From Acinetobacter pittii ANC 4050 (GTDB lineage Bacteria; Pseudomonadota; Gammaproteobacteria; Pseudomonadales; Moraxellaceae), in NCBI RefSeq assembly GCF_000399685.1, contig NZ_KB976987.1, positions 1,052,954 through 1,116,953 of the forward strand: DNA of 64,000 bases, read 5' to 3'. Of this stretch, positions 27,440 to 53,793 are shown in pieces (position 1 is the stretch's first letter; each line of letters begins with the position of its first letter). The translations under genes and the position numbers were made by a program. Under the pieces are notes generated by a model. It did no database searches. It worked only from the letters and a program-made list of their open reading frames with translations, and was not told the DNA's origin.

Positions 27440-27473
27440 TTCTCGGCCCTTATTCTGGATAATAATTACCATA

Positions 27474-27555: not shown

Positions 27556-27574
27556 TATAATGATAATCATTATT
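27556..27574. promoter_or_regulatory. Fur box (RND gene side)
   Basis: TATAATGATAATCATTATT matches the Fur consensus at 17 of 19 positions (the two end bases differ). It lies about 80 bases before the RND gene and can serve both divergent promoters. Confidence 0.85.
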
Positions 27575-30872: not shown

Positions 30873-31742
30873 TTAAGCTACCAGCTTATCAATCCAAACT
30901 TCTAAGGTTGGTTGTTCAGCCAAATCTTCAAAACTCACCTGTGCGCCGTAAGCTTGCCATTTACCCACTAATGTCATGAGTCGTACCGAATCAAGCCCAA
31001 GCATGAGCAAATCATCATTTAACTGAATGTCTGATGCAGGAATCTGAAGCTGTTCGCTCACCGCCAAAACAATACCTTCTTCAGTGAGTGGTGATGCCGC
31101 TTGTTCAAGCGCCCAAGCTCGTGTGACTTGCTGAGTTGTCATGACTTGCCCACAACGAGTACTTGCGTATTTTAAAGCCATATCGTGTTCTTCACGGCTA
31201 AAATCAGCGAGCGCATCTCCACATAAAAATGGCTGGATATTTAGCATAAAGGCTTCCGCTGCACTCATAAGACAGCCGATATGAGCATAAACACCACAAA
31301 TGATGAGCTGGTCACGGTTTGACTCACGCATGAGTTGTTCAAGTGGAGAAAACTTAAATGCGCTATAACGCCATTTTGTTAAGACAGTATCATTTTTTTG
31401 AGGAGAAATTTCCGGCAAAATTTGAGTGATTTTCGGATCATCTTTTAGGCCAGTTCCCCAAAAGTCAGTTAATAACTGGCGATGTTCCGGTGTCTGGTTA
31501 CCAGGCTGTGCCGTATACACCACAGGGATATTAAACTTACGCGCAGTTTCAATTAGTTCTTTGGTATTTTTAATAAGTTCTGGAATAGGCGCTTGAGTTT
31601 GATCATAAAAATCTAAAAAATATTGCTGCATATCATGTACTAATAAAACAGCGCGACTGGTATGCAACTGCCAAGATGTTTTATTCGCCGTAAATTCGTG
31701 GGCTTGTGGCATGCTGTAACTAGCAATTTTAGGAATACTCAT
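30873..31742 (-). CDS. entB: Isochorismatase / aryl carrier protein EntB (DhbB)
   Basis: This bifunctional protein has 289 residues. Residues 1-205 are the isochorismatase domain (LLVHDMQQYFLDF, VYTAQPGNQ, KWRYSAF, LIICGVYAHIGC) that makes 2,3-dihydro-2,3-dihydroxybenzoate. Residues 215-289 are an aryl carrier domain with LGLDSVRLM; the Ser near residue 252 takes phosphopantetheine. The ATG at 31742 is preferred to the TTG one codon earlier, with AAGGA upstream. It is last in the minus-strand order entA-entC-entE-entB. Confidence 0.96.
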   Translation of the reverse strand: MSIPKIASYSMPQAHEFTANKTSWQLHTSRAVLLVHDMQQYFLDFYDQTQAPIPELIKNTKELIETARKFNIPVVYTAQPGNQTPEHRQLLTDFWGTGLKDDPKITQILPEISPQKNDTVLTKWRYSAFKFSPLEQLMRESNRDQLIICGVYAHIGCLMSAAEAFMLNIQPFLCGDALADFSREEHDMALKYASTRCGQVMTTQQVTRAWALEQAASPLTEEGIVLAVSEQLQIPASDIQLNDDLLMLGLDSVRLMTLVGKWQAYGAQVSFEDLAEQPTLEVWIDKLVA

Positions 31743-31763
31743 CAAATTTTTCCTTTTTTATCT

Positions 31764-33428
31764 TTAAGCAAGAACATTGGTGTTAGTTTCAAGTTGTTGA
31801 CGTAATCTTTTTTTGTCGATTTTTCCAAAGGCTGTATATGGAAATTGCTCGATAAATTCGACCCGATCGGGAATTTTGTAGGTAGCAAGTCCATAGTCTT
31901 TCAGATGTTGACGAACTGACATTGCAAGGCGAATTTGGCTTGGGTCATCACTTTGTGCTTGCCATGCAATAAAGGCACAGCTTTTTTCCCCCATAATCTC
32001 ATCAGGCATAGCAACTAGTGCTGCCAAACGGATTTGTGGGTGAGTTAATAAAGCTTGTTCAACCTCTTCAGTCGCAATTTTTTCACCAGCGCGATTGATT
32101 TGTTCTTTTGAACGCCCTTCTACCACAATGCAGCCATCTTCGCGAATACGCACTAAATCGCCTGTTCGATAAAAACCATCCGGTGTAAAAGAACGTGCAT
32201 TATGCTCTGGTGCTTGATAATAGCCGCGAATGGTATAAGGCCCACGAGTCAGCAAATGCCCTACTTCTCCAGCGTCTACTGGCTGATCGTTATCATCCAG
32301 CACCAAGATTTCATCATCTTGTGAGATTTTTAAACCTTGGGTATGAACGATTTGCTCTTTCGTCATGTCAAAACGGGTGTAGTTCACCAGTCCTTCAGCC
32401 ATACCAAAGACTTGTTGTAGATTGACTTGAAATTCATCAATTAGGCGTGAGGCAACGGCATTGGGTAAACGTGCTCCTCCGACTTGCAAACAACGTAAAG
32501 TCGATAATATTGGATCTTGATCTTTTGCTGCTTTATCCATCCAAGGTCGGACTAAAGCAGGAACTAAACAGGCATCGGTTACGCCGTGTTTCTTGATTAA
32601 TGAAAAAGCAGTTTCAGGACTTGGATCAGTTCCTAAAACCACAGCTCCGCCCGAATAAAAAATGCCTAAAGAACCGGCCGAGCTCATTGAAAAGTTATGT
32701 GCCGCGGGTAAAACCATGAGTAAGCGTGATGACTGATTGAGACGGCAGATTTTTGCGCTTTCGCGTACGCTATATAAGTAGTCGTCATGGGTACGTGGAA
32801 TCAGTTTAGGAACACCAGTACTTCCACCTGAAAGTTGTAAGAAAGCAACCTGATCTGCCGTAGTAGGCGAAATCGCTGTATCCAAAATACTGGTTTCTTT
32901 TAATAGATCTTGAATGGCTATAAATTTGCCGGCATTTCCAAGGACAAATACATGTTGTAAGCAAGGAGCAGTTTGCTGAAGCTTTTCGGCAAGTTCTCGG
33001 TAGTCAAATTTTTGTGCTCCAAAATCAGCACAGAAATAAGCTTTTGCTTGAGTTTGTTTAAAAAAACTGCTGAGTTCTGCATAGCGATGTGCAGGTAAAG
33101 ACATCACAGGTAAAGCACCAAGCCGAATCAGTGCAAAAAATAAAATATAGAACTGATAGTGATTCGGCATCTGTACAACCGCTTTATCACCCGCTCTTAG
33201 TCCATGTTGATATAAGTGGCTGGTACAGTAATCAACTAAATGATCAAACTGAGCGTAACTGACGGCTTTTTCCCCATCATATACAGCAATATTTTCTGGG
33301 TATTTTTGAGCACTTTCACGCAAGAAATCACTCAAGTTTTGCCCAAGCCAATAACCTTTTTTACGGTAAATCTTAGCAAATTCTGCTGGATATGGCACGG
33401 CACCATCCAGATAAACCTGTGTTGTCAT
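31764..33428 (-). CDS. entE: 2,3-dihydroxybenzoate-AMP ligase EntE (DhbE)
   Basis: This 554-residue stand-alone adenylation enzyme activates 2,3-dihydroxybenzoate and loads it on the EntB carrier domain. Core motifs: LQLSGGSTGVPKLIPRTHDDY (A3, in pieces), AAHNFSMSS with the conserved Asn that contacts the hydroxyaryl group, GMAEGLVNYT, YRTGDLVR and GKIDKK near the C-terminus. Length is normal. It starts four bases inside the end of entC and is followed by entB after 21 bases. Confidence 0.96.
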   Translation of the reverse strand: MTTQVYLDGAVPYPAEFAKIYRKKGYWLGQNLSDFLRESAQKYPENIAVYDGEKAVSYAQFDHLVDYCTSHLYQHGLRAGDKAVVQMPNHYQFYILFFALIRLGALPVMSLPAHRYAELSSFFKQTQAKAYFCADFGAQKFDYRELAEKLQQTAPCLQHVFVLGNAGKFIAIQDLLKETSILDTAISPTTADQVAFLQLSGGSTGVPKLIPRTHDDYLYSVRESAKICRLNQSSRLLMVLPAAHNFSMSSAGSLGIFYSGGAVVLGTDPSPETAFSLIKKHGVTDACLVPALVRPWMDKAAKDQDPILSTLRCLQVGGARLPNAVASRLIDEFQVNLQQVFGMAEGLVNYTRFDMTKEQIVHTQGLKISQDDEILVLDDNDQPVDAGEVGHLLTRGPYTIRGYYQAPEHNARSFTPDGFYRTGDLVRIREDGCIVVEGRSKEQINRAGEKIATEEVEQALLTHPQIRLAALVAMPDEIMGEKSCAFIAWQAQSDDPSQIRLAMSVRQHLKDYGLATYKIPDRVEFIEQFPYTAFGKIDKKRLRQQLETNTNVLA

Positions 33429-34663
33429 GTGTTTGGTCCTTGTATTGGCAATTGATTGGGTGAAATCTGGAATCCATCCAGTACAGTACGAAATTTAGCG
33501 GCAGTTTCAGCATGTTCAGCTTGCGGACTAGAAGCTTCCACAATCCCTGCACCAGCAAATAAACGGGCAATATTTTGATAAATTCGGGCACAGCGAACAG
33601 TCACCGACCATTCACCATTACCTTGTTCATCTGCCCAGCCCATGGTTCCTGCAAATAATTCACGGTTGAATGGTTCAAGTTGCTGAATTAATTCTTTAGC
33701 AATTGGACTAGGCTCTCCACAAATTGCGGGTGTTGGGTGTAAGCGTTCAATTAAGTCAAAAACATGTGTATTGGCTTTCTTAAGTTCGCCGGTGATATGG
33801 GATGCCAAGTGCCAGAGGCGTTTGGTACGAATGAGGGATGGTTGTTTTGGTACTTGTAATTGCTTGCAAAAAGGTGTGAGCTCATCGGCAATCATTTCGA
33901 TGACGAGTGCATGTTCACGTTGATCTTTTTGTGAAGCCAGTAATGCTCTGGCATTGTTTTGGTCTACGGTTGGGTCATCATCACGAGCCAATGTACCGGC
34001 AACCGGTTTACTCCAGATTTTTGTATTTTGCTTTGCAATTAAGAGTTCGGGGCTTGCACCGACAAACCACCCTTCACTTTGAGGATGCCTCGCAACTGCA
34101 TAGTTATAGCCTTCGGGATTATGCTTAGCTAAGTTATAAAATAAGTCCGAGACAGGAATATTTTGTTCAAATTCAAGTTGTAAAATACGAGCAAGTACGG
34201 CTTTATCGAGTTTTTTTGCTTGCATTTGTTGAACTAAATACTCAACTTGCTGTTGGTAATGTTCACCTAAAGGGAAATAATCCGCCTTTTCTAAAGATAA
34301 AAAACCAAAATCAATATCAGACTGTGCATAGAGTGCTTTCTGATAGATTTTTGCATTTTGCATGAGCATTAAATTGACATCGGCTGCCGAGCAAAATGGT
34401 AGTCCACCCATAATTTTGACGTCTTTATAACCGTCATTTATTGCATGCTGTAATTGAGTTCTCGCTTCATCTAACCAATCTTTTAAAAGGCTATTTTTAG
34501 CGACTTGAATATCTCGTAATTTTTGATGACTATTGATGGTGTATTCTGGCGTGGTAAAAATAAAACCTGCGTCATTTCCACAATTTAAAATTTCTTGCGC
34601 TAGTGCAACGCGGCTTTCAGTAAAATTTTCTCGTTGGATAAAATACGGATGCTGTGCCGACAT
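33425..34663 (-). CDS. entC: Isochorismate synthase EntC (DhbC)
   Basis: This 412-residue chorismate-utilising enzyme converts chorismate to isochorismate, the first step to dihydroxybenzoate. C-terminal motifs typical of the family are SKPVAGTLARDDD, EHALVIEMIADEL, LWHLASHITGEL, HPTPAICGEPS, FAGTMGWADEQGNGEW and GAGIVEASSP. It is cytosolic. Overlap with entE by four bases shows tight coupling. Confidence 0.96.
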   Translation of the reverse strand: MSAQHPYFIQRENFTESRVALAQEILNCGNDAGFIFTTPEYTINSHQKLRDIQVAKNSLLKDWLDEARTQLQHAINDGYKDVKIMGGLPFCSAADVNLMLMQNAKIYQKALYAQSDIDFGFLSLEKADYFPLGEHYQQQVEYLVQQMQAKKLDKAVLARILQLEFEQNIPVSDLFYNLAKHNPEGYNYAVARHPQSEGWFVGASPELLIAKQNTKIWSKPVAGTLARDDDPTVDQNNARALLASQKDQREHALVIEMIADELTPFCKQLQVPKQPSLIRTKRLWHLASHITGELKKANTHVFDLIERLHPTPAICGEPSPIAKELIQQLEPFNRELFAGTMGWADEQGNGEWSVTVRCARIYQNIARLFAGAGIVEASSPQAEHAETAAKFRTVLDGFQISPNQLPIQGPNT

Positions 34664-34706
34664 CTCGCAACTCCTTATCAGTTATTTTGTTGTAATGAAT
34701 GGATGT

Positions 34707-35477
34707 TTAAACACCTAAAGTGGCTCCTCCATCAACCACAATTTCTTGCATGGTAATTTGTGCAGCTTGATCAGAAAGTAAAAAACTTACCGTATTGGCA
34801 ATATCTTCAGGTTGGGCTAATTTCCTTAAGGGAATGCCTGTACGGTATTGGCTTAAATCTCCATCGAGTACTGCAGGCGGAGGCGAATTATCGGTCCAAA
34901 GCTGCTGCTGCATTTGAGTTAGCGTAGAGCCCGGTGAAACAATATTAAGCCTGACTTGATGAGGTGCAATTTCAAGCGCAAGATTACGGCAGTAATGGCT
35001 CAATGCAGCTTTTGTAGTTGCGTACATGCCAAGTTGTATACGTGGCATCCGTGAACTATTTGAGCTAATCGTGACAATACTTCCCTGCTTTTTTTCACAA
35101 AAATGCTTAGCCATTTGTTGACTAATCGCAATAGGTGCCATGACATTTACTGCGAAAAGTGTTTGCCAGTCTTCTGTTTTTGCTTCAAGCATAGAACGCA
35201 TAATCAAAACGCCCGCCGCATTCACTAAACCCGTCACGCTATATTTGTTTAAAATATTGTTAATGAGCTTTGCTGTTGTTTCTTGATCAGTAATATCTTG
35301 CTGAAAGCCTTGCCAACGTGAAATTTCACGTTCTTCTAGCTTTTGAGTAATTTCCCATTGTTCTGGGTTTTCCTGTCGGTCGATGCCGATGACTTGATAC
35401 CCTTGCTGCAATAATTTTTTTGCAATAGCAGCTCCAATACCTCTTGCAGCACCTGTGACTACGATGGTAGAGCTCAT
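34707..35477 (-). CDS. entA: 2,3-dihydro-2,3-dihydroxybenzoate dehydrogenase EntA (DhbA)
   Basis: This 256-residue short-chain dehydrogenase oxidises the EntB product to 2,3-dihydroxybenzoate with NAD. TGAARGIGAAIA is the cofactor motif. NAAGVL and the catalytic SS...YATTKAAL segment (Tyr and Lys) are present. It is first of the minus-strand biosynthetic operon, 43 bases before entC, with Fur boxes in the divergent region upstream. Confidence 0.95.
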   Translation of the reverse strand: MSSTIVVTGAARGIGAAIAKKLLQQGYQVIGIDRQENPEQWEITQKLEEREISRWQGFQQDITDQETTAKLINNILNKYSVTGLVNAAGVLIMRSMLEAKTEDWQTLFAVNVMAPIAISQQMAKHFCEKKQGSIVTISSNSSRMPRIQLGMYATTKAALSHYCRNLALEIAPHQVRLNIVSPGSTLTQMQQQLWTDNSPPPAVLDGDLSQYRTGIPLRKLAQPEDIANTVSFLLSDQAAQITMQEIVVDGGATLGV

Positions 35478-35525: not shown

Positions 35526-35544
35526 AATAATTATCATTATTATC
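35526..35544. promoter_or_regulatory. Fur box (entA side)
   Basis: AATAATTATCATTATTATC matches the 19-bp Fur consensus at 15 positions. It lies about 50 bases before the entA start. Confidence 0.7.
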
Positions 35545-35663: not shown

Positions 35664-35705
35664 TATAATGATAATTGTTTTCATTTACTAATGATAATCA
35701 TTCTG
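35664..35705. promoter_or_regulatory. Tandem Fur boxes (esterase/NRPS side)
   Basis: Two Fur-like sites lie at 35664-35682 (TATAATGATAATTGTTTTC) and 35687-35705 (ACTAATGATAATCATTCTG, 15 of 19). They precede the esterase start at 35744, so the esterase-MbtH-NRPS-MFS operon should be iron repressed. Confidence 0.8.
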
Positions 35706-35743
35706 ATAATTTGACCGCGCTTTCTTGTCGAGATGGACTCAAA

Positions 35744-36943
35744 ATGAAGCCATTTTCTCAACCCTTACATCCCCTATTTCAACAACTCAATGTTGGGAGT
35801 GAAGTCTGGTGGAATACCGTAAAAAAACTAGGTAGCCCGCTAGTCACCCTACAAAAAAATAAAGCGCTATGTACCTTTATTTGGCGTAGTTCTGAACTCA
35901 AAGAAAGCCTTTTTATTTATATCGATATCTATTCACAAAGCCCTTCTATCTATCAAAAGTGGAATCGTTTTAGCCGCGTAGCTGGGACAGATGTGTACTT
36001 TTTTGAAATAGAGTTGCCTCTAGCTTGGGCTGGTAGTTACGTGGTCGTGACATCTAGTGAGGAGGCCCCAGAAACAGATTGTGCAGCAACACGACGCGCA
36101 TGGTGGCAAACCCAGCTTAAACAGAATGCTCAAATTGATCCATTCAATCAACATCGGTTTTACACGGGATATCTGGCTCGATATATCAACCAAATTCAAC
36201 TTGAAAACACAAAATCTTTAATAGCCGATTGCCCGATTACAAAAACATTTCAATGGTCAAGTCGCTTATGCCAGCAGGACTATTTAGTCGACGTTTTTAT
36301 TAGTCATCAATCAACTCAAGAAGATTTGCCACTCATCATTTTGCTTGATGGCCAAATCTGGAGCCGAGAGCTTTCGATTATTCCCGATCTTCAGCATTTA
36401 ACTGTTGAAGATAAGATTCGCCCAGCAGTTTATATTTTTGTTCATAGTTTAAATAGTCAACAACGCCAACGAGATTATGGTTGTCATGATGCATTTAGTC
36501 AGGCGTTGGTTTATGAACTTATTGAAACGCTTCTAAAAGAATATTCCTTTATTTCTAAAACAGACATTACCTTATGTGGTCAAAGTTTAGGTGGATTATG
36601 TGCTTTACATAGCGCCTTGTTGTTCCCGACCATTTTTACTTCTCTGATTTTACAGTCTGGATCTTATTGGTGGTCAGATTTTTCGAACAGTACGTTAGGT
36701 CAAAAATATAAAGGGAATATTTTAGAACTGTTTCAAAACCTATCTCATCCATTATCAAAAACAACTCAAATTTATATCAGTGCCGGCACGTATGAAACCG
36801 ATATGCGGGACGATGCCCTACAGCTTTATCAACAATTGCAATCATTCAATCAAGTGAGCTTTCACAGTTTTTCAGGCGGACATGATGCCGTGAACTGGCG
36901 TACCGACTTGCTTAAGGCATTGCAAAAAACTCTTTCACTATAA
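35744..36943 (+). CDS. fes: Fes-like ferric siderophore esterase
   Basis: This 399-residue cytoplasmic alpha/beta hydrolase is of the enterochelin esterase type. The start at 35744 is chosen because the longer open frame from 35675 runs through the second Fur box. The N-terminal domain includes FFEIELPLAWAGSYVV. The catalytic domain shows PLIILLDGQIW, the nucleophile motif LCGQSLGGLCAL, and the closing GGHDAVNW with the catalytic His. It should cut the ester bonds of the imported ferric siderophore to free iron, which implies a product with serine-type ester linkages. First gene of the plus-strand operon. Confidence 0.9.
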   Translation: MKPFSQPLHPLFQQLNVGSEVWWNTVKKLGSPLVTLQKNKALCTFIWRSSELKESLFIYIDIYSQSPSIYQKWNRFSRVAGTDVYFFEIELPLAWAGSYVVVTSSEEAPETDCAATRRAWWQTQLKQNAQIDPFNQHRFYTGYLARYINQIQLENTKSLIADCPITKTFQWSSRLCQQDYLVDVFISHQSTQEDLPLIILLDGQIWSRELSIIPDLQHLTVEDKIRPAVYIFVHSLNSQQRQRDYGCHDAFSQALVYELIETLLKEYSFISKTDITLCGQSLGGLCALHSALLFPTIFTSLILQSGSYWWSDFSNSTLGQKYKGNILELFQNLSHPLSKTTQIYISAGTYETDMRDDALQLYQQLQSFNQVSFHSFSGGHDAVNWRTDLLKALQKTLSL

Positions 36944-37200: not shown

Positions 37201-40200
37201 ATGAATCAGGCATTAAACAATGAATTTACTCCGGACCTTTCACAACCCGCTCGTTTTGAATTGGCCTCTACTCAGCTCGGCATTTTCCTTGCCGATCATT
37301 TAAGTTCAATTGAAGATTTATATACCATTGCGCATTGTTTGGAACTACCAAAAACTGTCGACATCCCCACATTTAAAAAAGCAATTCAAATCGGCTTAAA
37401 TGAAGCCGACACGGTCATTGCTTCATATTCATCTGACCCGTCTCAACCATTTATTGAGCTTAATAATCAAGTTCAGTTTCAAATCGAAGAATTTGATTTT
37501 TGTCATTTAACGCCTAAAAAAGCTCAACAACGCTTATGGGACTGGATGCCATCAGATCGTCAATGTGCTAAATCACTTAAAGCTGGTGAATCTCAACTGT
37601 TCCGTCAGGTGCTATTTACGACACACGACAAAGTGTATTGGTATCAACGTTATCACCACATCATGCTTGATGGCTTTAGTATGATTAACCTAACCAAACG
37701 TATTGTTGAGCTATATCAACAATTACAAGAAGGAAAAGATCTTTCGGTTTCCCCGTTCATTGGTGTGAATGACGTTATTTCGGAACGTCAGGCTTATGAA
37801 AATAGTCATCAATTTAAAATAGACCAAGCTTTCTGGAAAGCTTACTGTGAAGATTTACCGAGTCCAATTAGTTTAAGTACTCATCATTTAGCGGCAAAAA
37901 CTACAGCAACATTTGTTAAGCATCAGCTGCGTTTTTCGACAGGAATTTTAGAGCAAATTCAGGCTTTAGCTGCGCAAACCAAGTTGGCTTTAAATGACAT
38001 GATGATGTCATTGTCATTACATTATATTTACAAAATGACTGATAAAGCCGAGTTGGTTAACGGTATTCCATTTATGCGCCGTTTAGGTTCAAAAGCGATT
38101 CGCTCAACCTTACCTACGGTAAATGTCCTACCTGTGAAGTTTAAAGTTGCTGAAAAAGACAGTTGGGTGAGCTTGGCTCAACACGTACAAGAGCAATTAC
38201 GAGAAATTCGTTCGCATCAAAAATACGATGCAGAACAAATTTTAAGAGATTTAAATAGTATCGATATTCATGAACGAATGTACGGCCCTATTTTAAATTA
38301 TAAAGCTTTTGATCAAGACTTGGTTTTAGACGGTGAAAAGGTCAAAACACACCATATTTCTACAGGACCAATTGATGATTTTGAGTTTTCCTTTATTGTT
38401 CAAGATCATGAACTCATTATTGAACTGCGTGCAGATTCGCAGCGTTATACACAAGATGAGCTATTTAACCACGGTCAACGCTTAACGTTATTGCTCGAAC
38501 AAGCCTTGATTCGTCCAGAACAGCCATGTAGCAATTTTAATATTACAACACCACAAGAGCTTACTGCCCTGACCCAAAGTGGTATTGGTCCGCGTGTTAG
38601 TCATCCTGAACAATATAATAATGTTTTAGATATTTTTTATGAGCAAGTGAAAAAATATCCTGAACGTACCGCCATTGTGAGTGGTGAACGTCCAAACCTT
38701 CAGCATCTCAGTTTTGCTGAGCTTGCAGTAAAAGTGAATCAACTGACTCGTTTTTTACAAGAAAATGGGGCCAAAAAGCAAACTGTGATTGCGGGAGCTA
38801 TTCCTCGTTCGATTGACTCAGTTGTGGTGATGTTATCTGTACTCAATTCTGGTGCGAGTTTCTTACCTCTCGATTTAGATTATCCAATCGATCGTATGCA
38901 AATGATGTGTGAAGATGCAAATCCATTATTTGTATTAACTACACAAGCTCTTGCACAGCAACTACCACAAAATATTCAGCAGTTATATCTTGATCATGAA
39001 GATGTTCAAACGCAAATTCGAAAGCAAGATGCGAGTGATATTCCTGCCGAAAATCGTAAATTTGATTTCCAAGATGTTGCATATGTAATTTTTACCTCAG
39101 GAAGTACGGGTCGCCCTAAAGGAGTAATGAACACACATGGTTCTTTACTCAACCTCATTTTGTCGCATAAACCAACCATTTACTGGCCTGTATTAGAAGC
39201 GGTAAATGAGCGTTTCCCTGACCGTCCGTTACGTGCAGCGCATACCCACTCTTTCTCGTTTGATTCATCTTGGTTGCAAGTTTTCTGGATGTTATGGGGC
39301 CAAGAGCTACATATTTTTGATGAAAACATGCGTCGTGATGCATTTGGCTTAGTGCAAGAAATTCAACAACGACAAATCGATACACTGGATTTACCGCCAT
39401 CTTTTTGTGCGCAAATGATGACAAACGGCTTATTTCTTGAAAATCAGCATCATCCAAGTCTTATTTTGATTGGTGGTGAAGCTGCACCTCTAGCCTTATG
39501 GCAACAGCTCAATGCTCAGCCAGCGCTTTTTGCTCATAACTTATATGGCCCAACAGAATATACAGTTGATACTTTCCGGGCAGAGTTAAAACAGACCGCT
39601 CGCCCTGTCATTGGTAACCCTATTGGTAATACACAGGCCTATGTATTAGATCGTCATTTACAACGATGCCCGACTGGCGTCATTGGTGAGCTGTATATTT
39701 CTGGCTTTGGGATCGCCAATGGTTATTTAGGTCGCGCTGACTTAAGTGCTGCCCGCTTTGTAGCGAATCCATTTGAACATGGACAGCGCATGTACCGTAC
39801 GGGTGATTTAGTCCGCTGGAATAGTGCGGGTAAACTTGAGTTTATGGGGCGCTGTGATGACCAGATTAAAATTCGTGGTTATCGAGTCGAGATTGGTGAA
39901 GTTGAAAATGCACTTTCGATTTTAACCAATGTTGAAAGCGCAGTCGTGATTGCAGAACCGATTAATAACAGTCATCGTTTACTTGGTTACTGTGTAGTCA
40001 AAGACATTGAACTTGATGAAAAAACCAGTGAACAATTAAGTCAGCAATATTTAAGTCAGTTACGTCAAAACTTACCTGAATATATGGTGCCTTCTGCCCT
40101 AACTGTTATGTCTGAGTTTCCACGAAATGTAAGTGGTAAAGTCGATAAAAAAGCATTGCCGAAACCTCAAATTCGTACCCATAGCCGAATGGCTGAAACG

Positions 40201-43200
40201 CCTGAACAACAGCTTTTATGCCAAATTACTGCATCTGTTCTTAAGCTTGACGCTATTGGGATTGATGACGACTTCTTTATGACAGGTGGCGATAGTATTT
40301 CGGCTATTATGCTTTGTACTCAATTGCGCCAACGTGGTTACGGCGTAAGACCAAGTGATGTATTCCAATTTAAAACAGTCGCCGCTATAGCACCGCAACT
40401 TACCCGTTTAGATGAGCAACAAGCGGCCGTTTCAAAACCGTTATTTTCAGCGGACCTAGAACAAAAAGTTCAAGAAAAATATGGAAAAAACAGCACGATT
40501 TTGCCTTTGCTTCCTTTGCAAAAAGGCATGTTATTCTTATCTCAAGTAGAAAATCAATCAAATTATAATGCCTTTACTCGGCTTAGTTTAAATGGAGAAA
40601 TTGATCCGGTACGCCTACAGCAAGCATTGATTACCGTATTAAAACGTCATCCTCAATTAGGTGGACATTTTGATAGCGAATTAGCTGAAGAACCTGTTTT
40701 TATCTATTCATTACACCCTACTCAAGCTTGGCCAGTTCAGTTTTGCTCAGTCACTCGCGATCTGCTTGAGCAAACTATTCAAGAGGCATTACAGCAACCG
40801 ATTCACCTTGACCAACCCTATGGCTTAATTCGGGCAACCTTAATTCAACATGCTCCTGAACAATCCGAATTATTGATTATGGTGCATCATCTTTTAACAG
40901 ATGGTTGGTCAACTCCACTGTTTTTACAAGACTTTATTAAAGCCTATCAGCAAACGAACCAACCACTGCCAGTGCTTGAACATAGTTATGAAACGGTGAT
41001 TAAAGCTTTATCTGGGCGTGATCATGAAACGTCAAAAGCGATATGGCAACGTGATTTAGCTGATTTACAACCACTTATTTTATTTAATCAACCACAGCAA
41101 GCTGTACAGGAAACTTCCTATCGTTTAAGTGCCGAGTTGGGTGCAAAACTTCAACATAAATTACGCCAACAAGGCATCACGCTCAATGTCTTCATGCAAA
41201 TGATTTGGGCAATGACTTTAAATATTTATGCTCATCGTGAAGATATTGTGTTTGGTACTCCTGTTTCGGGGCGTTCGGCACCTATCAATGGTTTAGAGCA
41301 GCAGATTGGATTGTTTTTAAATACGATTCCGGTGCGTGTAAAACTCAACATGCAACAAACACTTTGGGAACAATTGCCTCAGTTACAGCAATTGCATGTT
41401 GAACATTTAGAACATGATGGTTTAGGACTAAGTACAATTCAGCAATTGATAGCTCAGGGCAATCTTTTCGATAGTTTGTTAGTCGTAGAAAACTACCCAG
41501 ATAACCAGTATTTACAGCAAAAACTTGGTGATGCTGCTATTTCCAAACTTACAAATCGCGGTTATAGCCATTACCCGCTTGCTTTGTTGGTTATTCCTGA
41601 TCATCAAATTGAGTTATTGCTCGAACAGCGTGGTGTAATTGATCAGCCAGAACATTTCTTAGAGCGAATGGTTCAATTGATTGAAATTGCACTAAATGAA
41701 CCAGAGACGTCTCTAAGTCATTATCGCTTACAGCTGGCTGAAGAACACGATTTAGTCCAGAAAACAAATCAAACTCAATACTATGTTCGCCAAAGCACGT
41801 TACAGCAATTACTCAGAGAACAAGCTCGAATTACGCCTGAACAAACGGCGTTATCTGATGAAAATCATCAGCTCAGTTTCAGTGAAGTGCGTTTGCAAGT
41901 TTGTGCATTAGCACAGCAATTGCAAAGAACGGGCGTACAGGCGGGAGATATTGTTGCGGTTGCCCTCCCAAGATCAGTCAAATTGAGTATTGCGATTTTA
42001 GCGGTGATTGAAGCAGGTGCAGCTTATTTACCTATTGATTTACAACATCCGTCTGAACGCATCAAATTTATGTTGCAAGATGCTAAATCTAAACTTGTGA
42101 TTGGTGAACAAAAAGATTTAGCAGCTATTGTTCACCCATCAATAGCTACCTTTGCTTTTAATGAATTATTTGATGAAACCAAGGTTGATTTAAGTAGCTA
42201 TAAAACGACAGTTATTACCCCACAGCACCCGGCATATTTAATCTATACATCGGGTACAACAGGCCAGCCAAAAGGTGTCATGGTTTCTCACCAAGCCATT
42301 GTGAACCGTATTTTATGGATGCAATCAGAGTATCCGCTGTCAGCCAACGATACGATTTTGCAAAAAACGCCATGTACTTTTGATGTTTCAGTATGGGAGT
42401 TTTTCTGGTCATACTTAGTGGGTGCAAGATTGGTTATGGCTCCTGTGGATGCACACCGTGACCCATTGGCATTATTAAGTCTCATTCAAAAATATCAGGT
42501 AACAACATTACATTTTGTACCGTCAATGTTGGCTGTTTTTGAAAATGCTGCTACCGAAATTTTGTCATCTGCTCAGCGTCAAAGTTTACCAATTCGCCGA
42601 GTGTTCTGTAGTGGTGAGGCATTACCAACAGCTCTAGCAAAATCATTTACCGAGCACTTTAGCTGTGAGCTACATAACTTATATGGCCCAACAGAAGCGG
42701 CCGTAGATGTGAGTCATATGGATGCAACACTAGGTTTACACCCTGAAGAAAGTAGCGTCGCAATTGGTTATCCAGTCTGGAATACCCAGCTTTATATTTT
42801 AGATCAATACTTACGCCCTGTTCCTGTTGGAGTGGACGGTGAGCTTTATTTAGCTGGTCATCAACTTGCCATGGGTTATTTACATCGGCCGGACTTAACC
42901 GCATCACGTTTTGTGGCAAATCCATTTACAGCAGGTCAACGCATGTATCGTACTGGTGATATTGCCCGTTGGCATGCAGACGGCAGTATTCAATATGTGG
43001 GCCGTGCTGATGACCAGTTAAAAATACGGGGTCAACGTATTGAACTGGGTGAAATTGAACAGCAATTACGCTTACTCAGTGGTCTTGATGCGGTTGTACA
43101 TCCTATCTCTTCTGAGCAAAATAAAGCAGATGTTCAATTGGTCGCTTACTTGCAAACAACTGCACCTGTGGACATCGACCAGTTAAAGAAACAATTGGCG

Positions 43201-44352
43201 AAACAGCTTCCAACTTATATGGTGCCTACACACTATATGCTAGTTGAGAAATTCCCATTAAGTCATAATGGGAAGCTGGACCGTAAAGCACTGCCACAAC
43301 CACAGCTTGATCTTTCAAATATAGAAAAACAGTACGCCACTAGTGCTTTTGAGCATGAACTGACACGTATTTTCCAGCAAGTTTTAAACACCGATCAAAA
43401 TATTGGTGTGAACGAAGACTTCTTTGCTATTGGTGGACATTCCATTTTGGTAATGAAACTTGCAATTGAAATCCGAAAAGTATTTAAGCGGACTATTCCA
43501 ATTGGCCAGTTGATGAGTCATGTCACGATTCAACGTTTAGCAGCTTTACTTCTTACACAAGAACGTTTGGCAGAAGTTGAACAAACTGGCATGCAGCCTA
43601 TTTTACCAATCCGTACAGGTTCTGGGCATCCATTGTTCTGTTTCTACCCGGGTTCTGGTTCGGCATGGCAATATACAGTGCTGAATCGTTATCTACACTC
43701 TGAATTACCCATTATTGGGTTGCAGTCTCCTCGACCTGAAGGCCTATTGGCAAATAGCGCTGATATGGACGAACTGGTTGAAAAACAACTTGAGATTATT
43801 CGTAAGCAACAACCAACAGGACCTTATACGTTACTAGGTTATTCACTTGGCGGCACTGTGGCTTATGCCGTTGCAGCGAAGTTAACTGAACAAGGTGAAA
43901 AAGTTGATTTTCTCGGCTTATTAGACACTTATCCTGCTGAAATTCATCAGTGGTTAGATTTATCGGTAGAGGAAATGAATGCTGAAGCTGAACAAGAACA
44001 GCTTCAATTCTTCAATGATATTTTAGCCGATGCAGATACGGCATTAAGTGTAGAAACCCGTCGTTTACAAGAAGATATTTTCGCGAACTACCGTGATGCC
44101 GTCCGTTTATTAAAACCGTATAAAATGCCGCACTTTGATGGTGAACTACACTTAGTTGTCGCTGAAAAAGACTTGCTGCCGTATATCCAACCAGAACAAC
44201 AATGGTCACCTTTAGTTAAAAAACTCAATATTGTTCGACTCAGCGAAGCGGACCATACCGATATATTGTCTCCACAGCAGCTTGAAACACTTGGTCCGAT
44301 TTTAAACCGCATGATTTGTCAGGCGCGCGGTTTAGAGGAGCACACGCCATGA
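37201..44352 (+). CDS. dhbF: Two-module siderophore NRPS (C-A-T-C-A-T-TE)
   Basis: This 2383-residue synthetase has domains in order: C1 (HHIMLDG at 152-158), A1 (TSGSTGRPKG at 632, YGPTE at 782), T1 (GGDSI, Ser1032), C2 (LPLLPLQKGMLF at 1101, HHLLTDG at 1229), A2 (TSGTTGQPKG at 1683, YGPTE at 1828), T2 (GGHSI, Ser2081) and TE (GYSLGG, Ser2215; His2352). The A2 pocket residues (D1728, V1729, W1732, H1771, F1802, S1804, L1827, V1835, D1836) give the serine code. A1 reads D-S-L-D-L-G-L-V-D, with acidic pocket residues, suggesting a cationic residue. No epimerase domain is present. C1 should accept DHB from EntB. The size equals Bacillus DhbF, but the specificity differs. The stop overlaps the MFS start. 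Confidence 0.95.
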   Translation: MNQALNNEFTPDLSQPARFELASTQLGIFLADHLSSIEDLYTIAHCLELPKTVDIPTFKKAIQIGLNEADTVIASYSSDPSQPFIELNNQVQFQIEEFDFCHLTPKKAQQRLWDWMPSDRQCAKSLKAGESQLFRQVLFTTHDKVYWYQRYHHIMLDGFSMINLTKRIVELYQQLQEGKDLSVSPFIGVNDVISERQAYENSHQFKIDQAFWKAYCEDLPSPISLSTHHLAAKTTATFVKHQLRFSTGILEQIQALAAQTKLALNDMMMSLSLHYIYKMTDKAELVNGIPFMRRLGSKAIRSTLPTVNVLPVKFKVAEKDSWVSLAQHVQEQLREIRSHQKYDAEQILRDLNSIDIHERMYGPILNYKAFDQDLVLDGEKVKTHHISTGPIDDFEFSFIVQDHELIIELRADSQRYTQDELFNHGQRLTLLLEQALIRPEQPCSNFNITTPQELTALTQSGIGPRVSHPEQYNNVLDIFYEQVKKYPERTAIVSGERPNLQHLSFAELAVKVNQLTRFLQENGAKKQTVIAGAIPRSIDSVVVMLSVLNSGASFLPLDLDYPIDRMQMMCEDANPLFVLTTQALAQQLPQNIQQLYLDHEDVQTQIRKQDASDIPAENRKFDFQDVAYVIFTSGSTGRPKGVMNTHGSLLNLILSHKPTIYWPVLEAVNERFPDRPLRAAHTHSFSFDSSWLQVFWMLWGQELHIFDENMRRDAFGLVQEIQQRQIDTLDLPPSFCAQMMTNGLFLENQHHPSLILIGGEAAPLALWQQLNAQPALFAHNLYGPTEYTVDTFRAELKQTARPVIGNPIGNTQAYVLDRHLQRCPTGVIGELYISGFGIANGYLGRADLSAARFVANPFEHGQRMYRTGDLVRWNSAGKLEFMGRCDDQIKIRGYRVEIGEVENALSILTNVESAVVIAEPINNSHRLLGYCVVKDIELDEKTSEQLSQQYLSQLRQNLPEYMVPSALTVMSEFPRNVSGKVDKKALPKPQIRTHSRMAETPEQQLLCQITASVLKLDAIGIDDDFFMTGGDSISAIMLCTQLRQRGYGVRPSDVFQFKTVAAIAPQLTRLDEQQAAVSKPLFSADLEQKVQEKYGKNSTILPLLPLQKGMLFLSQVENQSNYNAFTRLSLNGEIDPVRLQQALITVLKRHPQLGGHFDSELAEEPVFIYSLHPTQAWPVQFCSVTRDLLEQTIQEALQQPIHLDQPYGLIRATLIQHAPEQSELLIMVHHLLTDGWSTPLFLQDFIKAYQQTNQPLPVLEHSYETVIKALSGRDHETSKAIWQRDLADLQPLILFNQPQQAVQETSYRLSAELGAKLQHKLRQQGITLNVFMQMIWAMTLNIYAHREDIVFGTPVSGRSAPINGLEQQIGLFLNTIPVRVKLNMQQTLWEQLPQLQQLHVEHLEHDGLGLSTIQQLIAQGNLFDSLLVVENYPDNQYLQQKLGDAAISKLTNRGYSHYPLALLVIPDHQIELLLEQRGVIDQPEHFLERMVQLIEIALNEPETSLSHYRLQLAEEHDLVQKTNQTQYYVRQSTLQQLLREQARITPEQTALSDENHQLSFSEVRLQVCALAQQLQRTGVQAGDIVAVALPRSVKLSIAILAVIEAGAAYLPIDLQHPSERIKFMLQDAKSKLVIGEQKDLAAIVHPSIATFAFNELFDETKVDLSSYKTTVITPQHPAYLIYTSGTTGQPKGVMVSHQAIVNRILWMQSEYPLSANDTILQKTPCTFDVSVWEFFWSYLVGARLVMAPVDAHRDPLALLSLIQKYQVTTLHFVPSMLAVFENAATEILSSAQRQSLPIRRVFCSGEALPTALAKSFTEHFSCELHNLYGPTEAAVDVSHMDATLGLHPEESSVAIGYPVWNTQLYILDQYLRPVPVGVDGELYLAGHQLAMGYLHRPDLTASRFVANPFTAGQRMYRTGDIARWHADGSIQYVGRADDQLKIRGQRIELGEIEQQLRLLSGLDAVVHPISSEQNKADVQLVAYLQTTAPVDIDQLKKQLAKQLPTYMVPTHYMLVEKFPLSHNGKLDRKALPQPQLDLSNIEKQYATSAFEHELTRIFQQVLNTDQNIGVNEDFFAIGGHSILVMKLAIEIRKVFKRTIPIGQLMSHVTIQRLAALLLTQERLAEVEQTGMQPILPIRTGSGHPLFCFYPGSGSAWQYTVLNRYLHSELPIIGLQSPRPEGLLANSADMDELVEKQLEIIRKQQPTGPYTLLGYSLGGTVAYAVAAKLTEQGEKVDFLGLLDTYPAEIHQWLDLSVEEMNAEAEQEQLQFFNDILADADTALSVETRRLQEDIFANYRDAVRLLKPYKMPHFDGELHLVVAEKDLLPYIQPEQQWSPLVKKLNIVRLSEADHTDILSPQQLETLGPILNRMICQARGLEEHTP

Positions 44353-45590
44353 GCTTCAAATCTGTATTGACCGATTTTAGTCTTTTAAAACGTAATACTC
44401 ATTTCCGACATGTATTTATTGCCCGTACATTGTCATTGTTAACCATTGGCATGTTGGTTGTGGCTATTCCAAAACAAGTCTATGACATTACGGGTAGTTC
44501 GTTAAATGTTGCAGTTGCAATGGCTTTTGAAGGCATTGCCATGTTTATTGGCCTGTTACTTGGTGGTTTGCTGTCAGATCGCAAAGACCGAAAATGGCTA
44601 ATTTTATTGGCACGTGGTGTGTGTGGTTTAGGTTTTGCTGGTCTCGCCATCAATGCCATGTTTGAGCACCCTTCGCTCTATGCCATTTATTTTCTATCCG
44701 CATGGGATGGTTTCTTTGGTGCACTCGGTGTAACCGCAATGATGGCAATCATGCCTGTGATTGTAGGGCGTGAAAATATCGTACAAGCCCGTGCAATCAG
44801 TATGGTATCCGTACGGCTTGCAACCGTTATTTCACCGGCAATCGGCGGTATATTAATTGCTGCTAGCGGTGTTGCGACCGTGTATTGGGTCTCAACCGTA
44901 GGTACTTTACTCACTGTGTTTTTATTAATGGGACTACCTGCGCTTAAACCGCAACATGTATCAAATGGCGAGAGCCCTCTTCGCCAATTAGTTCAAGGTT
45001 TTAAATTCGTTTTTAAAAATAAAGTAGTCGGTAGCACGATTTTAATTGGCACATTGCTTAGTTTCAGCAGTGCTATTCGAATTATTTTTCCGCAAATGGC
45101 AGATGAAATTTTTCACGGCGGTGCGTTCGAACTCGGGCTTATGTATACGGCAGTGCCTTTAGGCTCGACTTTAGGAGCTTTACTCAGTGGCTGGACAACA
45201 CGTTTACTCAGACCCGGCTTGGTCATGCTCTATACATGTTTAGGTGTTTTTAGCTGCATGATTATGATTGGACTTTCACCGTGGTTAATCGTGACTTTGC
45301 CCATTTTATGTGTATTTGGATATTTGATGTCGATTGCCAATTTGCTTCAATACAGCATTGTGCAAGGACATACGCCTGATGAATATTTAGGACGTATTAA
45401 TTCAATCTGGCTTGCACAAGATGCGTTAGGCGATTCGATTGCCACCACAACTTTAGGTCTTTTAACTCGGTTCTTACCAATATCCGGAAGTATCCTCTTC
45501 TTTGGCATATTAAGCTTTGCAGTCGGTTTTATGTTCTTATTCAACTCTCAAGATATGCGGGAAACAGGATTCCAAGATCCTAAGTTATAA
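44349..45590 (+). CDS. MFS siderophore exporter (EntS/P45-like)
   Basis: This 413-residue major facilitator has about twelve membrane spans. It starts at the ATG overlapping the NRPS stop (ATGA); the longer frame from 44316 lies inside the NRPS. The early segment THFRHVFIARTLSLLTIGMLVVAIP (in pieces) and the LLSDRKDRKWLIL loop motif are typical of EntS-type catecholate exporters. As last gene of the operon it should export the apo-siderophore across the inner membrane. Its size fits the P45 protein recalled from A. baumannii 8399. Confidence 0.93.
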   Translation: MSFKSVLTDFSLLKRNTHFRHVFIARTLSLLTIGMLVVAIPKQVYDITGSSLNVAVAMAFEGIAMFIGLLLGGLLSDRKDRKWLILLARGVCGLGFAGLAINAMFEHPSLYAIYFLSAWDGFFGALGVTAMMAIMPVIVGRENIVQARAISMVSVRLATVISPAIGGILIAASGVATVYWVSTVGTLLTVFLLMGLPALKPQHVSNGESPLRQLVQGFKFVFKNKVVGSTILIGTLLSFSSAIRIIFPQMADEIFHGGAFELGLMYTAVPLGSTLGALLSGWTTRLLRPGLVMLYTCLGVFSCMIMIGLSPWLIVTLPILCVFGYLMSIANLLQYSIVQGHTPDEYLGRINSIWLAQDALGDSIATTTLGLLTRFLPISGSILFFGILSFAVGFMFLFNSQDMRETGFQDPKL

Positions 45591-45641: not shown

Positions 45642-46388
45642 TTAAGCAGAATGACGTGCCTGAAAAACCCAAGTCATAATATGGTCTTGTTCTATGGTCC
45701 AGCCACCGTCATAGTATTCTAAGAGTTGATAGCGCTGCTGAATTTCTGGCAAAAAAGTTAGCATTAATGTTTGATTTTCAAAATTAATATCAACTATAGA
45801 TGCTTCTAAAAAATCAATATATTGCTTTGCAGTGGGATAAACCGCTTTATATAGACTTTCTTTTATAGAAAAAATTAAACTCACATAACAGGCAAAATCA
45901 AAAAACTCAACCGCTTTATTTTTCCATAAATCAAACTCAGATGGTGTTAAAACAAGATGTGCACTTTCTTGAGCAAATTCTGAGGTCACCCAGTGTTCAA
46001 TATCAATTCCCAAATAATTCGCGTTGTTAGATAACGCAACAATTAACTTATTTTGTGAATGACTAATACTCCCCAAAACATGGGATGGCCAGATGGGTAA
46101 ATGTTCGTGCATCGAGGTTATTGACTGATCTAAACCAAAATGATGACTTAAAACAGCCTGAGCCAATACTCTCCCACAAAGGTATTCTTGTTGACGTTTT
46201 GGATGTGCTTGAGCAATTTTTAGGGGATGCTCTAATTGCTGGTCTATATGCAAATGATGCGTTTTTGATAAATCTAGACCATAACAAAATAGCTCGGATG
46301 TAAAAAAAATAGGGTGCGAAATTTCATAAATTGATTTACTGAGTGGTTCAGGAATGTATAGATAATGACTCACTGGATTCGGCTTCAA
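45642..46388 (-). CDS. entD: 4'-phosphopantetheinyl transferase (EntD/Sfp family)
   Basis: This 248-residue enzyme attaches phosphopantetheine to the carrier domains of EntB and the NRPS. Family motifs are visible: GRVLAQAVL, WPSHVLGSISHS, YLGIDIEHW with the metal-binding Asp, and FSIKESLYKAVYP with the catalytic Glu and Lys. It faces the NRPS operon across a terminator and shares an upstream region containing a Fur-like box with the PepSY group. Confidence 0.93.
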   Translation of the reverse strand: MKPNPVSHYLYIPEPLSKSIYEISHPIFFTSELFCYGLDLSKTHHLHIDQQLEHPLKIAQAHPKRQQEYLCGRVLAQAVLSHHFGLDQSITSMHEHLPIWPSHVLGSISHSQNKLIVALSNNANYLGIDIEHWVTSEFAQESAHLVLTPSEFDLWKNKAVEFFDFACYVSLIFSIKESLYKAVYPTAKQYIDFLEASIVDINFENQTLMLTFLPEIQQRYQLLEYYDGGWTIEQDHIMTWVFQARHSA

Positions 46389-47079: not shown

Positions 47080-48684
47080 ATGAAAGTACGTTCAGACATC
47101 ATGAAATTAGCAAAAAGCATGCATACTTGGGTGGGTGTATGTGCAGGGATTTTGCTTTTTATCTGTTTCTTTGCTGGTGGGCTCAGCATGTTTCAGCACC
47201 ATATTAGTAAGTGGGCTACCCCAACACAGCAAGTTTTACCGAAAGTCTCACCCGATCAATATAATGAACTCATTCAAAAAGTACAGACAGCCTATCCTGC
47301 TGCGCAAAAGAATTTCACACTAAATTTATCGTCTAATGAATTTCACTATGCGCCCATTACGTGGAGTGAACATGAACGTGGAGAAGGCTTTAATGCTGCT
47401 CAATCTACGTGGATGGCAAGCTTAGATGAAAAAGGTCAGTTAATCGTTGCTCAAGAAAACCTATCTAAAGCTGGCTGGCTAATCGAACAGTTACATGAAA
47501 CAGCAGGCATACCGGGCATGGCAGGTCATCACGGATTAGGTCTCTATGTGATGGGCGTGGTTTCAATTTTATATTTTCTTGCCCTGCTTTCAGGAGTGAT
47601 CATACTTTTACCAACCTTGGTAAAAGATTACTTTGTTATTCGCCCTGGTAAAAATAAAAAGCGATTTTGGTTAGATGCGCATAACGTGATTGGAATTACC
47701 AGCTTACCTTTCCACATCATTATTAGTATTAGCGTTATTGTCTTTGCTTTTCATGACTTTTTTTATGATGCGATTGGACAACTTGCACTCAAAGGACAGC
47801 CTGTTTTTCAGCGCTCTGCGCCTGCACTTATTCAGCCTAAACAAACACAAATCGATGTTCAGCAAATATTAGCTCAAACTAAAAAAGTAGCACCTGAATA
47901 TTCAGTCGACTATATCCAGTTCAGTGGTCTAGATAAGCCTGAAAAAGCCAATGCACGTATTGCTCTCTATAGCGCAGATCAGATGTTGCGCGGTGCGAAT
48001 CATGACTTTATGCGTATGAACCCATATGCAGTTGAGCACTTTAATCATAAAGGCATTAACACAAAGACTGATGCTGGGAATAAGTTAATCAACGCCATGT
48101 TTAGTCTACATTTTGGAAGTTTTGGCGGTACGGGCGTACGCTGGATTTATTTTGTTTTAGGTGTTGGTGGCGCTTTCTTGTTTTATACAGGTAACATCCT
48201 TTGGGTTGAAACTCGTGCACGTAAGCAAAAGCGTGCTGAAGATCCAGTTCCTGTTCAACGTAAAGATGTAGTGTTCCTTGCGAACTTAACGATAGGCGCA
48301 TGTTTAGGATGTGTTTTAGCAGTCGTGGGCACAATGTTAGCCAGTCGTTGGCTTTTCGCTGCTTTCAATATTGAAAGTATGAATCACCTCTTTATGTATG
48401 GTTATTATGCGATTTTCCTACTGAGTTTGATTTATACCTTTGTGATTGGCTATGCAAAAGCTTTACCACAATTACTCTTAACCTTAGTTTTTGTGTTATT
48501 CGCAATTCCACTAACCTCTTTTGTGGCCTATTTCATTCCTCAAAGTGGCTTATGGGTACATGGCGGAGAAATCTTAGTGGTTGATTTCTTAGCTATCATT
48601 TTTGCTTTCGCTTTCTGGCGTTTTTATCAACAAGCCCAAGATCGCCTAAAATCTGCTCCAACAGGCAGTTTATGGGCTAGCTAA
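47080..48684 (+). CDS. PepSY-associated membrane protein (ferric siderophore reductase-like)
   Basis: This 534-residue inner membrane protein is of the PepSY_TM family. The N-terminal span carries HTWVGVCAGILLFICFFAGGLSMF (in pieces), then a periplasmic domain. The later spans hold conserved histidines (GHHGLGLYVMG, DAHNVIGITSLPFHIIIS, NAMFSLHFGSFGG) that resemble heme or metal ligands. More spans follow to the C-terminus. Such proteins accompany siderophore receptors and are thought to help reduce or release iron at the inner membrane. Start at 47080 has a GGGG motif upstream. It follows two coupled small genes. Confidence 0.85.
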   Translation: MKVRSDIMKLAKSMHTWVGVCAGILLFICFFAGGLSMFQHHISKWATPTQQVLPKVSPDQYNELIQKVQTAYPAAQKNFTLNLSSNEFHYAPITWSEHERGEGFNAAQSTWMASLDEKGQLIVAQENLSKAGWLIEQLHETAGIPGMAGHHGLGLYVMGVVSILYFLALLSGVIILLPTLVKDYFVIRPGKNKKRFWLDAHNVIGITSLPFHIIISISVIVFAFHDFFYDAIGQLALKGQPVFQRSAPALIQPKQTQIDVQQILAQTKKVAPEYSVDYIQFSGLDKPEKANARIALYSADQMLRGANHDFMRMNPYAVEHFNHKGINTKTDAGNKLINAMFSLHFGSFGGTGVRWIYFVLGVGGAFLFYTGNILWVETRARKQKRAEDPVPVQRKDVVFLANLTIGACLGCVLAVVGTMLASRWLFAAFNIESMNHLFMYGYYAIFLLSLIYTFVIGYAKALPQLLLTLVFVLFAIPLTSFVAYFIPQSGLWVHGGEILVVDFLAIIFAFAFWRFYQQAQDRLKSAPTGSLWAS

Positions 48685-48730: not shown

Positions 48731-49351
48731 TTATAAAACCCATATTGTTTCGGTCAGTTGTTTAATTTCTTGAATATCATGACTCACATAAATCATCGGA
48801 ATTTTTATTTCCTGTTTTACCTTTTGAAAAAAAGGAATAATTTCAGCTTTATGGTTCGCATCAAGTGCTGATAAAGGCTCATCAAGCAGTAATAGCTTAG
48901 GTGAATATAACAATGCTCGTCCTAGAGCTACGCGCTGTTTTTCCCCTCCAGAGAGTTTAATCGGCATACGTTGTAATAAATGCTCTAACTTTAATAATTC
49001 AATAATATAATCTGCTTCAAAGTGACGTTCTTGTTGGGATAGATGTTTAAGACCAAATAATAAATTTTGCTTTACCGTTTTATGCGGAAAAAGCTGAGCA
49101 TCTTGAAAAACCAAACCAACATGTCGCTTTTGCGTGCTCAAATTAATTTTCTGATTTGAATCAAACCATGTTTGATCCTGTATTTTAATGACTCCACTGC
49201 GTGGTGTATTTAATCCTGCAATGGCATGTAGAATTGATGTTTTACCTGCCCCAGAGGCACCGAATAAGCCAATAACAGAAGCATCTGACTGGAAACTAGG
49301 TTCAATATGAAATTGACCCATTTGTAGCTGAAAACGGCATTCAATCAACAT
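48731..49351 (-). CDS. modC: Molybdate ABC transporter ATPase ModC (short form)
   Basis: This 206-residue ATPase energises molybdate import. Walker A (GASGAGKTS), Q-loop (VGLVFQDAQLFPH), signature (LSGGEKQRV), Walker B (LLLLDEP) and switch His (VSHDIQE) are all intact. The protein stops right after the ATPase core, at TETIWVL. The C-terminal Mop/TOBE domain of classical ModC (about 350 residues) is absent. It starts four bases after modB. Assignment rests on modA and modB. Confidence 0.9.
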   Translation of the reverse strand: MLIECRFQLQMGQFHIEPSFQSDASVIGLFGASGAGKTSILHAIAGLNTPRSGVIKIQDQTWFDSNQKINLSTQKRHVGLVFQDAQLFPHKTVKQNLLFGLKHLSQQERHFEADYIIELLKLEHLLQRMPIKLSGGEKQRVALGRALLYSPKLLLLDEPLSALDANHKAEIIPFFQKVKQEIKIPMIYVSHDIQEIKQLTETIWVL

Positions 49352-49355
49352 AATC

Positions 49356-53288: not shown

Positions 53289-53290
53289 CC

Positions 53291-53782: not shown

Positions 53783-53793
53783 GGGGAATGAAA

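Follow-up and report, generated by a model that had tools for sequence, protein, structure and literature searches.

The gene cluster around a two-module NRPS in the window (the whole 64,000-nucleotide stretch of Acinetobacter pittii ANC 4050 analysed here) probably makes a turnerbactin/spirilobactin-type catechol siderophore of DHB-L-ornithine-L-serine units, as judged from sequence comparison. A preliminary description had proposed a siderophore of DHB, a basic residue and serine, and this proposal is supported by the DHB genes, the serine-type second module, two pocket aspartates of the first module (D730 and D790) and the absence of an epimerase. The predicted compound would be a new member of the DHB-basic residue-Ser family, which is itself known. 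It provides a concrete structure, with expected masses and testable by LC-MS, for the product of the long-known 8399-type Acinetobacter cluster, ties that cluster to the spirilobactin of Azospirillum, and gives the pocket code DSLDLGLVDK a predicted substrate.

Domain Architecture of the NRPS

ORF calling yielded one ORF, of 2383 aa, that coincides exactly with the span of the NRPS (Table 1). Pfam detected the Condensation, AMP-binding and PP-binding domains twice each and the Thioesterase once, and HHxxxDG motifs occur at residues 152 and 1229. Neither an epimerase nor a third condensation-like domain was found by Pfam and the HHxxxDG scan over the full 2383 aa; since only two such motifs are present, the NRPS is considered epimerase-free, and the L configuration is predicted because the epimerase is missing. 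The EntF model scored 1571 bits (cut-off 2400), with residues 1100–2372 as its best stretch. The enterobactin type (EntF) has a single Ser module, whereas the NRPS of the window has two and stays under the EntF cut-off.

For comparison, the clusters termed TnbF-coded here are three stretches from two genomes (L159–L161), the Teredinibacter turnerae T7901 protein itself not being identified by name among them. The C2 domain groups with that of the TnbF-coded NRPS (SH-aLRT 96), and it resembles, and in the tree adjoins, C2 domains located downstream of an epimerase. The C2 domain of TnbF is likewise reported to be of the epimerase-following type, though turnerbactin holds L-Orn (PMC3795760, in excerpt). 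Because TnbF combines the same type with an L-Orn product, the condensation-domain type was discarded as evidence for chirality.

Table 1. Features of the siderophore cluster, in window positions.
Feature	Position	Strand	Basis or remark
TonB-dependent receptor, Cir/FepA class, OM73-like	25478..27472	-	41% over 634 aa to the receptor of a TnbF-coded cluster
Fur-box-like site, 17/19	27556..27574	.	between receptor and RND genes
RND efflux permease, P114-like, likely siderophore export	27657..30818	+	45-46% to the gene of the TnbF-coded clusters
DhbB/EntB isochorismatase with C-terminal aryl carrier domain	30873..31745	-	Pfam
DhbE/EntE DHB-AMP ligase	31764..33428	-	691 bits, just under cut-off 723.55
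DhbC/EntC isochorismate synthase	33425..34663	-	TIGR00543 over cut-off
DhbA/EntA-type 2,3-dihydro-DHB dehydrogenase	34707..35477	-	TIGR04316 291.9 bits, just under cut-off 300
Fur-box-like site, 15/19	35526..35544	.	dhbA/fes divergent region
Fes-like esterase	35675..36943	+	NCBIfam NF007758 over cut-off; Pfam
MbtH-like protein, 71 aa	36973..37188	+	45% to annotated Azospirillum MbtH protein
Two-module NRPS, C-A1-T-C-A2-T-TE	37201..44352	+	ORF, Pfam, motifs
A1 adenylation domain, code DSLDLGLVDK, predicted L-ornithine	38596..40200	+	alignment, tree
First nine A1 pocket codons, D688 to D790	39262..39570	+	tenth codon, K980, at 40138
C2 condensation domain, residues 1098-1515	40492..41745	+	Pfam, tree
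A2 adenylation core, residues 1538-1894	41812..42882	+	Pfam; pocket code extends to K2025
Second carrier domain, residues 2053-2117	43357..43551	+	Pfam
Thioesterase PF00975, residues 2144-2363	43630..44289	+	Pfam; GYSLGG motif at residue 2213
EntS-type MFS exporter	44316..45590	+	NF007792 over cut-off
EntD-type phosphopantetheinyl transferase	45642..46388	-	Pfam
Two small proteins, 85 and 96 aa	46533..47077	+	ORFs; the 96-aa one 39% to a TnbF-coded cluster
PepSY-TM protein, probable ferric-siderophore reductase	47080..48684	+	Pfam; 42% to that of a TnbF-coded cluster

Gene Content of the Cluster

The cluster extends from 25478 (receptor) to 48684 (PepSY gene), and along with the NRPS it carries the genes that make DHB and provide the aryl carrier (dhbA, C, E and B; 30873–35477). 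Acinetobactin and fimsbactin were ruled out as products: the genome's one strong DHB-AMP ligase and its one NRPS-size match are those of this cluster, the second-best ligase match reaching 226 bits. The RND permease has no adjacent periplasmic adaptor ORF; in Azospirillum, an adaptor lies beside the pump. Beyond the PepSY gene are a molybdate ABC transporter (48731–50830) and anthranilate 1,2-dioxygenase genes (51873–56325), the latter with a regulator that resembles AndR but falls under the cut-off; both groups are apparently unrelated to the cluster. Elsewhere in the genome (C1:646920-654261), three IucA/IucC domains likely mark a second, NRPS-independent siderophore system.

Pocket Codes of the Adenylation Domains

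The codes were read from a MAFFT alignment with Escherichia coli EntF (L022), which itself gives DVWHFSLVDK in the same columns. A1 yielded DSLDLGLVDK (D688, S689, L692, D730, L756, G758, L781, V789, D790 and K980), and A2 yielded the serine code DVWHFSLVDK (D1728, V1729, W1732, H1771, F1802, S1804, L1827, V1835, D1836 and K2025). The letters previously read by eye are thus correct for both domains, including D730, G758 and D790 of A1 and the identity of A2 with the EntF serine code. The A1 code was described there as not a known standard code; the published TnbF code matches it at eight of ten positions. The serine code of A2 is unchanged in 37 of the 40 other loci compared, with I replacing V in three. 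Seven homologues from outside Acinetobacter retain all ten A1 pocket letters at 48.6–59.4% identity over the domain, which exceeds chance; a ten-of-ten match has a p of ~0.002 if sites are independent at 54%, the true figure being weaker, as two of the ten sites are near-universal and one lies inside a scan pattern.

The codes given for TnbF are DSDDGGLVDK in module 1 and DVWHFSLVDK in module 2 (PMC3795760, in excerpt). A1 departs from the former at two positions, having L instead of D at 239 and L instead of G at 299, and the TnbF-coded A1 is 45% identical to that of the window over the domain. Six to seven of ten letters are shared with the enterobacterial epimerase-bearing codes DSEDMGY(V/I)DK (L154–L156 and L158), which belong to plasmid NRPSs of Serratia, Pantoea and Erwinia, and four of ten with the Chromobacterium subtsugae code DGEDMGFISK. 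In PosA, the solved L-Orn domain of Acinetobacter baumannii, an acid at 239 is described as holding the side-chain amine (PMC10522769, in excerpt). A1 has Leu there, without the acid of PosA, so its pocket would probably hold the ornithine amine differently, via D730 and D790. PosA was rejected as a code model, as its own code, DMEHNGTVSK, has the acid at 239 and matches A1 at four of ten letters.

Relatives of A1 and Phylogeny

Scanning the genome collection with an A1 alignment identified 42 loci, of which 12 are from Acinetobacter. Of the two patterns used, one includes pocket position 239 and favors L/I, so that agreement at this position is in part built in; the other nine positions lie outside the patterns. 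Exact DSLDLGLVDK is present in 30 of these 42 loci, and it occurs in Acinetobacter, Azospirillum, Rugamonas, Janthinobacterium, Thalassolituus, Marinobacterium and rhizobia. The other loci read DSLDLGLVD with the last position missing (L038), DSIDLGLVDK (L032), DGEDMGFISK (two loci), DTDA(T/D)CIVYK (four), a glycine-like code (L061) or an unreadable one (L062), and from two (L063 and L064) no domain was extracted. The DTDA(T/D)CIVYK code was found in the two-module NRPSs of Shewanella, Psychromonas and Colwellia (L054, L055, L056 and L058), whose second module has the Ser code and in which a motif scan revealed no third condensation motif.

When 390 genomes from the window's order were searched with a profile, 14 had a match at 1e-118 or better, the own genome included. 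Two of the 14 (L107 and L108) have the exact TnbF code, and L105 (genome G706) reads DSVDAGLVDK, its letters at 239 and 299 being intermediate between the Acinetobacter and TnbF codes. Within the genus, the domain was found at 1e-130 or better in 20 of 175 genomes, again including the own. A search aimed at CbsF and FreF matched 17 of 397 genomes of one order (that of G330). Four genomes of one genus (L110–L113) carry the A1 code DTDDYGY(I/V)DK in proteins of 2864–2888 aa, long enough for an epimerase.

The A1 trees comprised 54 and then 51 rows, hand-chosen from the extracted A1-like domains; left out were many near-duplicates, more distant domains and L157, and the second tree drops L054, L055 and L058 as long branches. 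The related NRPS L157, from a Pseudomonas silvicola plasmid, was dropped because it is spread across many annotated ORFs; it is apparently broken or badly sequenced. The rows reading D-S-x-D-x-G-L-V-D-K form one clade (30 of 51 rows, bootstrap 98, SH-aLRT 99). Among them are the TnbF-coded pair (L107 and L108), L105, Azospirillum and rhizobial rows and the Acinetobacter rows of the tree, and none is of a size to include an epimerase. Where precisely the TnbF-coded pair branches within the clade has modest support (82/76). Outside it lie the epimerase-bearing, glycine-type and serine-type rows, as well as C. subtsugae. Epimerases were judged by motifs for L052, L154–L156 and L158, and by protein size for L106 and L109–L113.

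Comparison with Known Siderophore Systems

The turnerbactin cluster (tnb) of T. turnerae T7901, as far as its published description goes, is closely similar to that of the window. Its NRPS has the same epimerase-free C-A-T-C-A-T-TE order and the identical Ser code in addition to the A1 match, and the locus lists a receptor, an RND permease, dhbCEBA, an esterase, MbtH, EntS, a small protein and a PepSY protein, as here. In the excerpts of PMC3795760, TnbF is without an epimerase, turnerbactin contains L-Orn and L-Ser by Marfey analysis, a cyclic macrolactone was not found in Teredinibacter, and in the tnb table a 550-aa PepSY protein follows hypothetical proteins of 87 and 100 aa. The same source gives ions of m/z 356.1, 693.3 and 1030.4 for turnerbactin and takes 1012.4 as a dehydrated trimer, a value that a cyclic trilactone would share. 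In tblastn against the TnbF-coded stretches, the NRPS was 45% identical over 2411 aa, dhbB 44%, dhbE 44–49%, dhbC 38%, dhbA 39–40%, the esterase 27–28%, MbtH 53–55% and EntS 52%, whereas these stretches gave no match to entD or the 85-aa protein. Yet, differences are present: the gene order is not the same, the EntD gene of the window cluster is absent from the tnb locus as listed, and the RND adaptor adjoins the pump in tnb but does not lie beside the permease here.

Spirilobactin of Azospirillum brasilense was described in 1987 as a catecholate of equimolar DHB, Orn and Ser, the structure not being presented (quoted in PMC3795760, in excerpt). Three A. brasilense genomes (L042, L043 and L048) each have one DHB-AMP ligase over the cut-off, and in all three this sole ligase shares a contig with a DSLDLGLVDK NRPS, within ~10 kb. 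The A1 code of that NRPS is identical to that of the window and the whole protein is about 46–47% identical, although the gene order differs. Spirilobactin may thus be the product of this NRPS type, a link by composition only, as the producing strain is other than the genomes compared here.

In A. baumannii 8399, the om73-entD cluster ("cluster 4") comprises a 73-kDa receptor, the P114 pump, DhbB/E/C/A/F, Fes, EntS and EntD, according to excerpts of PMC3859900; it has the same gene content as the window cluster, a putative orthology judged by description. This cluster type dates to work of 1992 and 2003 (cited in the same review, PMC3859900, in excerpt). TnbF is stated to be 45% identical to the A. 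baumannii NRPS AAN28936 (PMC3795760, in excerpt). In the excerpts available, the 8399-type cluster is reported as absent from ten sequenced strains (PMC3055841) and present in one of 249 isolates, that one being non-baumannii (PMC4507327), and its product was an uncharacterised catecholate siderophore as of 2020 (PMC7595644). No product name for it occurs in the titles and abstract openings of the Acinetobacter siderophore papers searched, a sample in which subscription journals are mostly uncovered, so a structure may have been published elsewhere.

Members of the chrysobactin, cyclic trichrysobactin and vanchrobactin family share the DHB-basic residue-Ser logic and an EntF-like second module. 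However, the chrysobactin/vanchrobactin type has an epimerase after module 1, which the NRPS of the window lacks. Accordingly described, in excerpt, are CbsF with an epimerase and D-Lys (PMC8480324), the viobactin NRPS with an epimerase and D-Lys (PMC13251462), and the D-Lys cyclic trichrysobactin of Chromobacterium violaceum, a congener of C. subtsugae (PMC13251462). The Yersinia FreF is an epimerase-free Lys-Ser NRPS (PMC8480324, in excerpt). By this description, frederiksenibactin shares the epimerase-free DHB-L-basic residue-L-Ser plan predicted for the window cluster, but it contains Lys, whereas Orn is predicted here. The window cluster does not match the bacillibactin type either, in view of D at 278 and 331 of A1 and the Ser code of A2. 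In DhbF, the first module has a glycine code and the second a Thr code. The earlier exclusion of enterobactin and bacillibactin therefore holds, with two modules unlike EntF and an A2 code unlike that of DhbF.

Substrate of A1

The code DSLDLGLVDK probably denotes ornithine, as two organisms of the clade, the TnbF-coded type and Azospirillum, bracket A1. The preliminary description had named lysine, arginine and ornithine together; its basic-residue reading is supported, and among the three, the tree and the match to TnbF point to ornithine. It is unlikely that A1 activates L-lysine or L-arginine to give (DHB-L-Lys-L-Ser)n resembling frederiksenibactin, or its L-Arg counterpart, even though D at 278 and 331 together with G at 301 also occurs in the epimerase-bearing L154–L156 and L158. 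FreF, in the published excerpt, uses Lys without an epimerase, so the lack of this domain need not mean ornithine (PMC8480324), and a smaller residue at position 236 of PosA is reported to raise Lys activity, A1 having Ser there (PMC10522769, in excerpt). Yet TnbF, an Orn enzyme, too has Ser at 236 (PMC3795760, in excerpt). In addition, the four-letter match of C. subtsugae, a congener of the D-Lys producer, and its place outside the clade argue against lysine, FreF, CbsF and VabF being compared by description.

Glycine or another small neutral residue, which would lead to a DHB-Gly-Ser product, had been left open in the preliminary description and is now highly improbable. A1 does have Gly at 301, and DILQLG..WK codes, which we take to be of the glycine type, come close to it by count: DILQLGLVWK shares seven of ten letters, DILQLGMVWK and DILQLGLIWK six, and DILQLGMIWK five, and L at 239 and 299, the two TnbF mismatches, are the very letters of DILQLGLVWK. 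With glycine-type codes reaching seven of ten, letter counts alone separate ornithine from glycine poorly, and enterobacterial epimerase-type and other codes likewise attain six to seven. A review also likened the 8399-cluster proteins to Bacillus subtilis Dhb proteins including DhbF (PMC3859900, in excerpt). However, the EntF-anchored alignment gave D at 278 and 331 of A1, where all 10 DILQLG..WK domains found have Q and W; position 236 differs too. The four glycine-type rows in the trees (L077, L081, L083 and L088) branch apart from A1 in both, and the exact A1 code occurs in Azospirillum, which is linked to Orn by composition. The case against glycine thus rests on 236, 278, 331 and the tree, not on letter counts: D730, D790 and the clade placement agree on a basic-residue pocket, while the raw counts overlap the glycine type. 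It is very unlikely that A1 takes some other basic or polar residue, such as 2,4-diaminobutyrate or a modified ornithine, into a siderophore not yet described. No published enzyme assay of exact DSLDLGLVDK was found in the available excerpts, and two pocket letters differ from TnbF; against this, spirilobactin consists of DHB, Orn and Ser and comes from a species with the exact code, and the scan of cluster genes turned up none recognisable as amino-acid-modifying.

Predicted Product and Regulation

With L-ornithine as the predicted substrate of A1, the product would be a Fur-controlled oligomer of DHB-L-Orn-L-Ser, probably a trimer, linear or cyclic. In the proposed pathway, DhbC, DhbB and DhbA would make 2,3-DHB, and DhbE would load it onto the carrier domain of DhbB. 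C1 would then join DHB to L-Orn on A1-T1, and C2 would couple DHB-Orn with L-Ser on A2-T2. The thioesterase would link the units, probably three, by serine esters before releasing them in linear or cyclic form. That it releases the cyclic trilactone (DHB-L-Orn-L-Ser)3, as the common product of the exact-code clusters in the bacteria listed above, is possible but doubtful. EntS and the RND pump may export the siderophore, the TonB receptor would re-import its ferric form, and the iron would be freed by the PepSY reductase and the Fes-like esterase.

Repression of the cluster by Fur is suggested by four Fur-like sites of at least 15/19 in the window, against 0.24 expected per simulated window. 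All four fall within or adjoin the cluster's two divergent promoter regions, and none as strong as the 17/19 site was found in 100 simulated windows. In addition to the two sites in Table 1, 15/19 sites begin at 35664 and 35687. As these two (35664–35705) extend over the region where the fes ORF has its TTG start, the true fes start is probably somewhat downstream.
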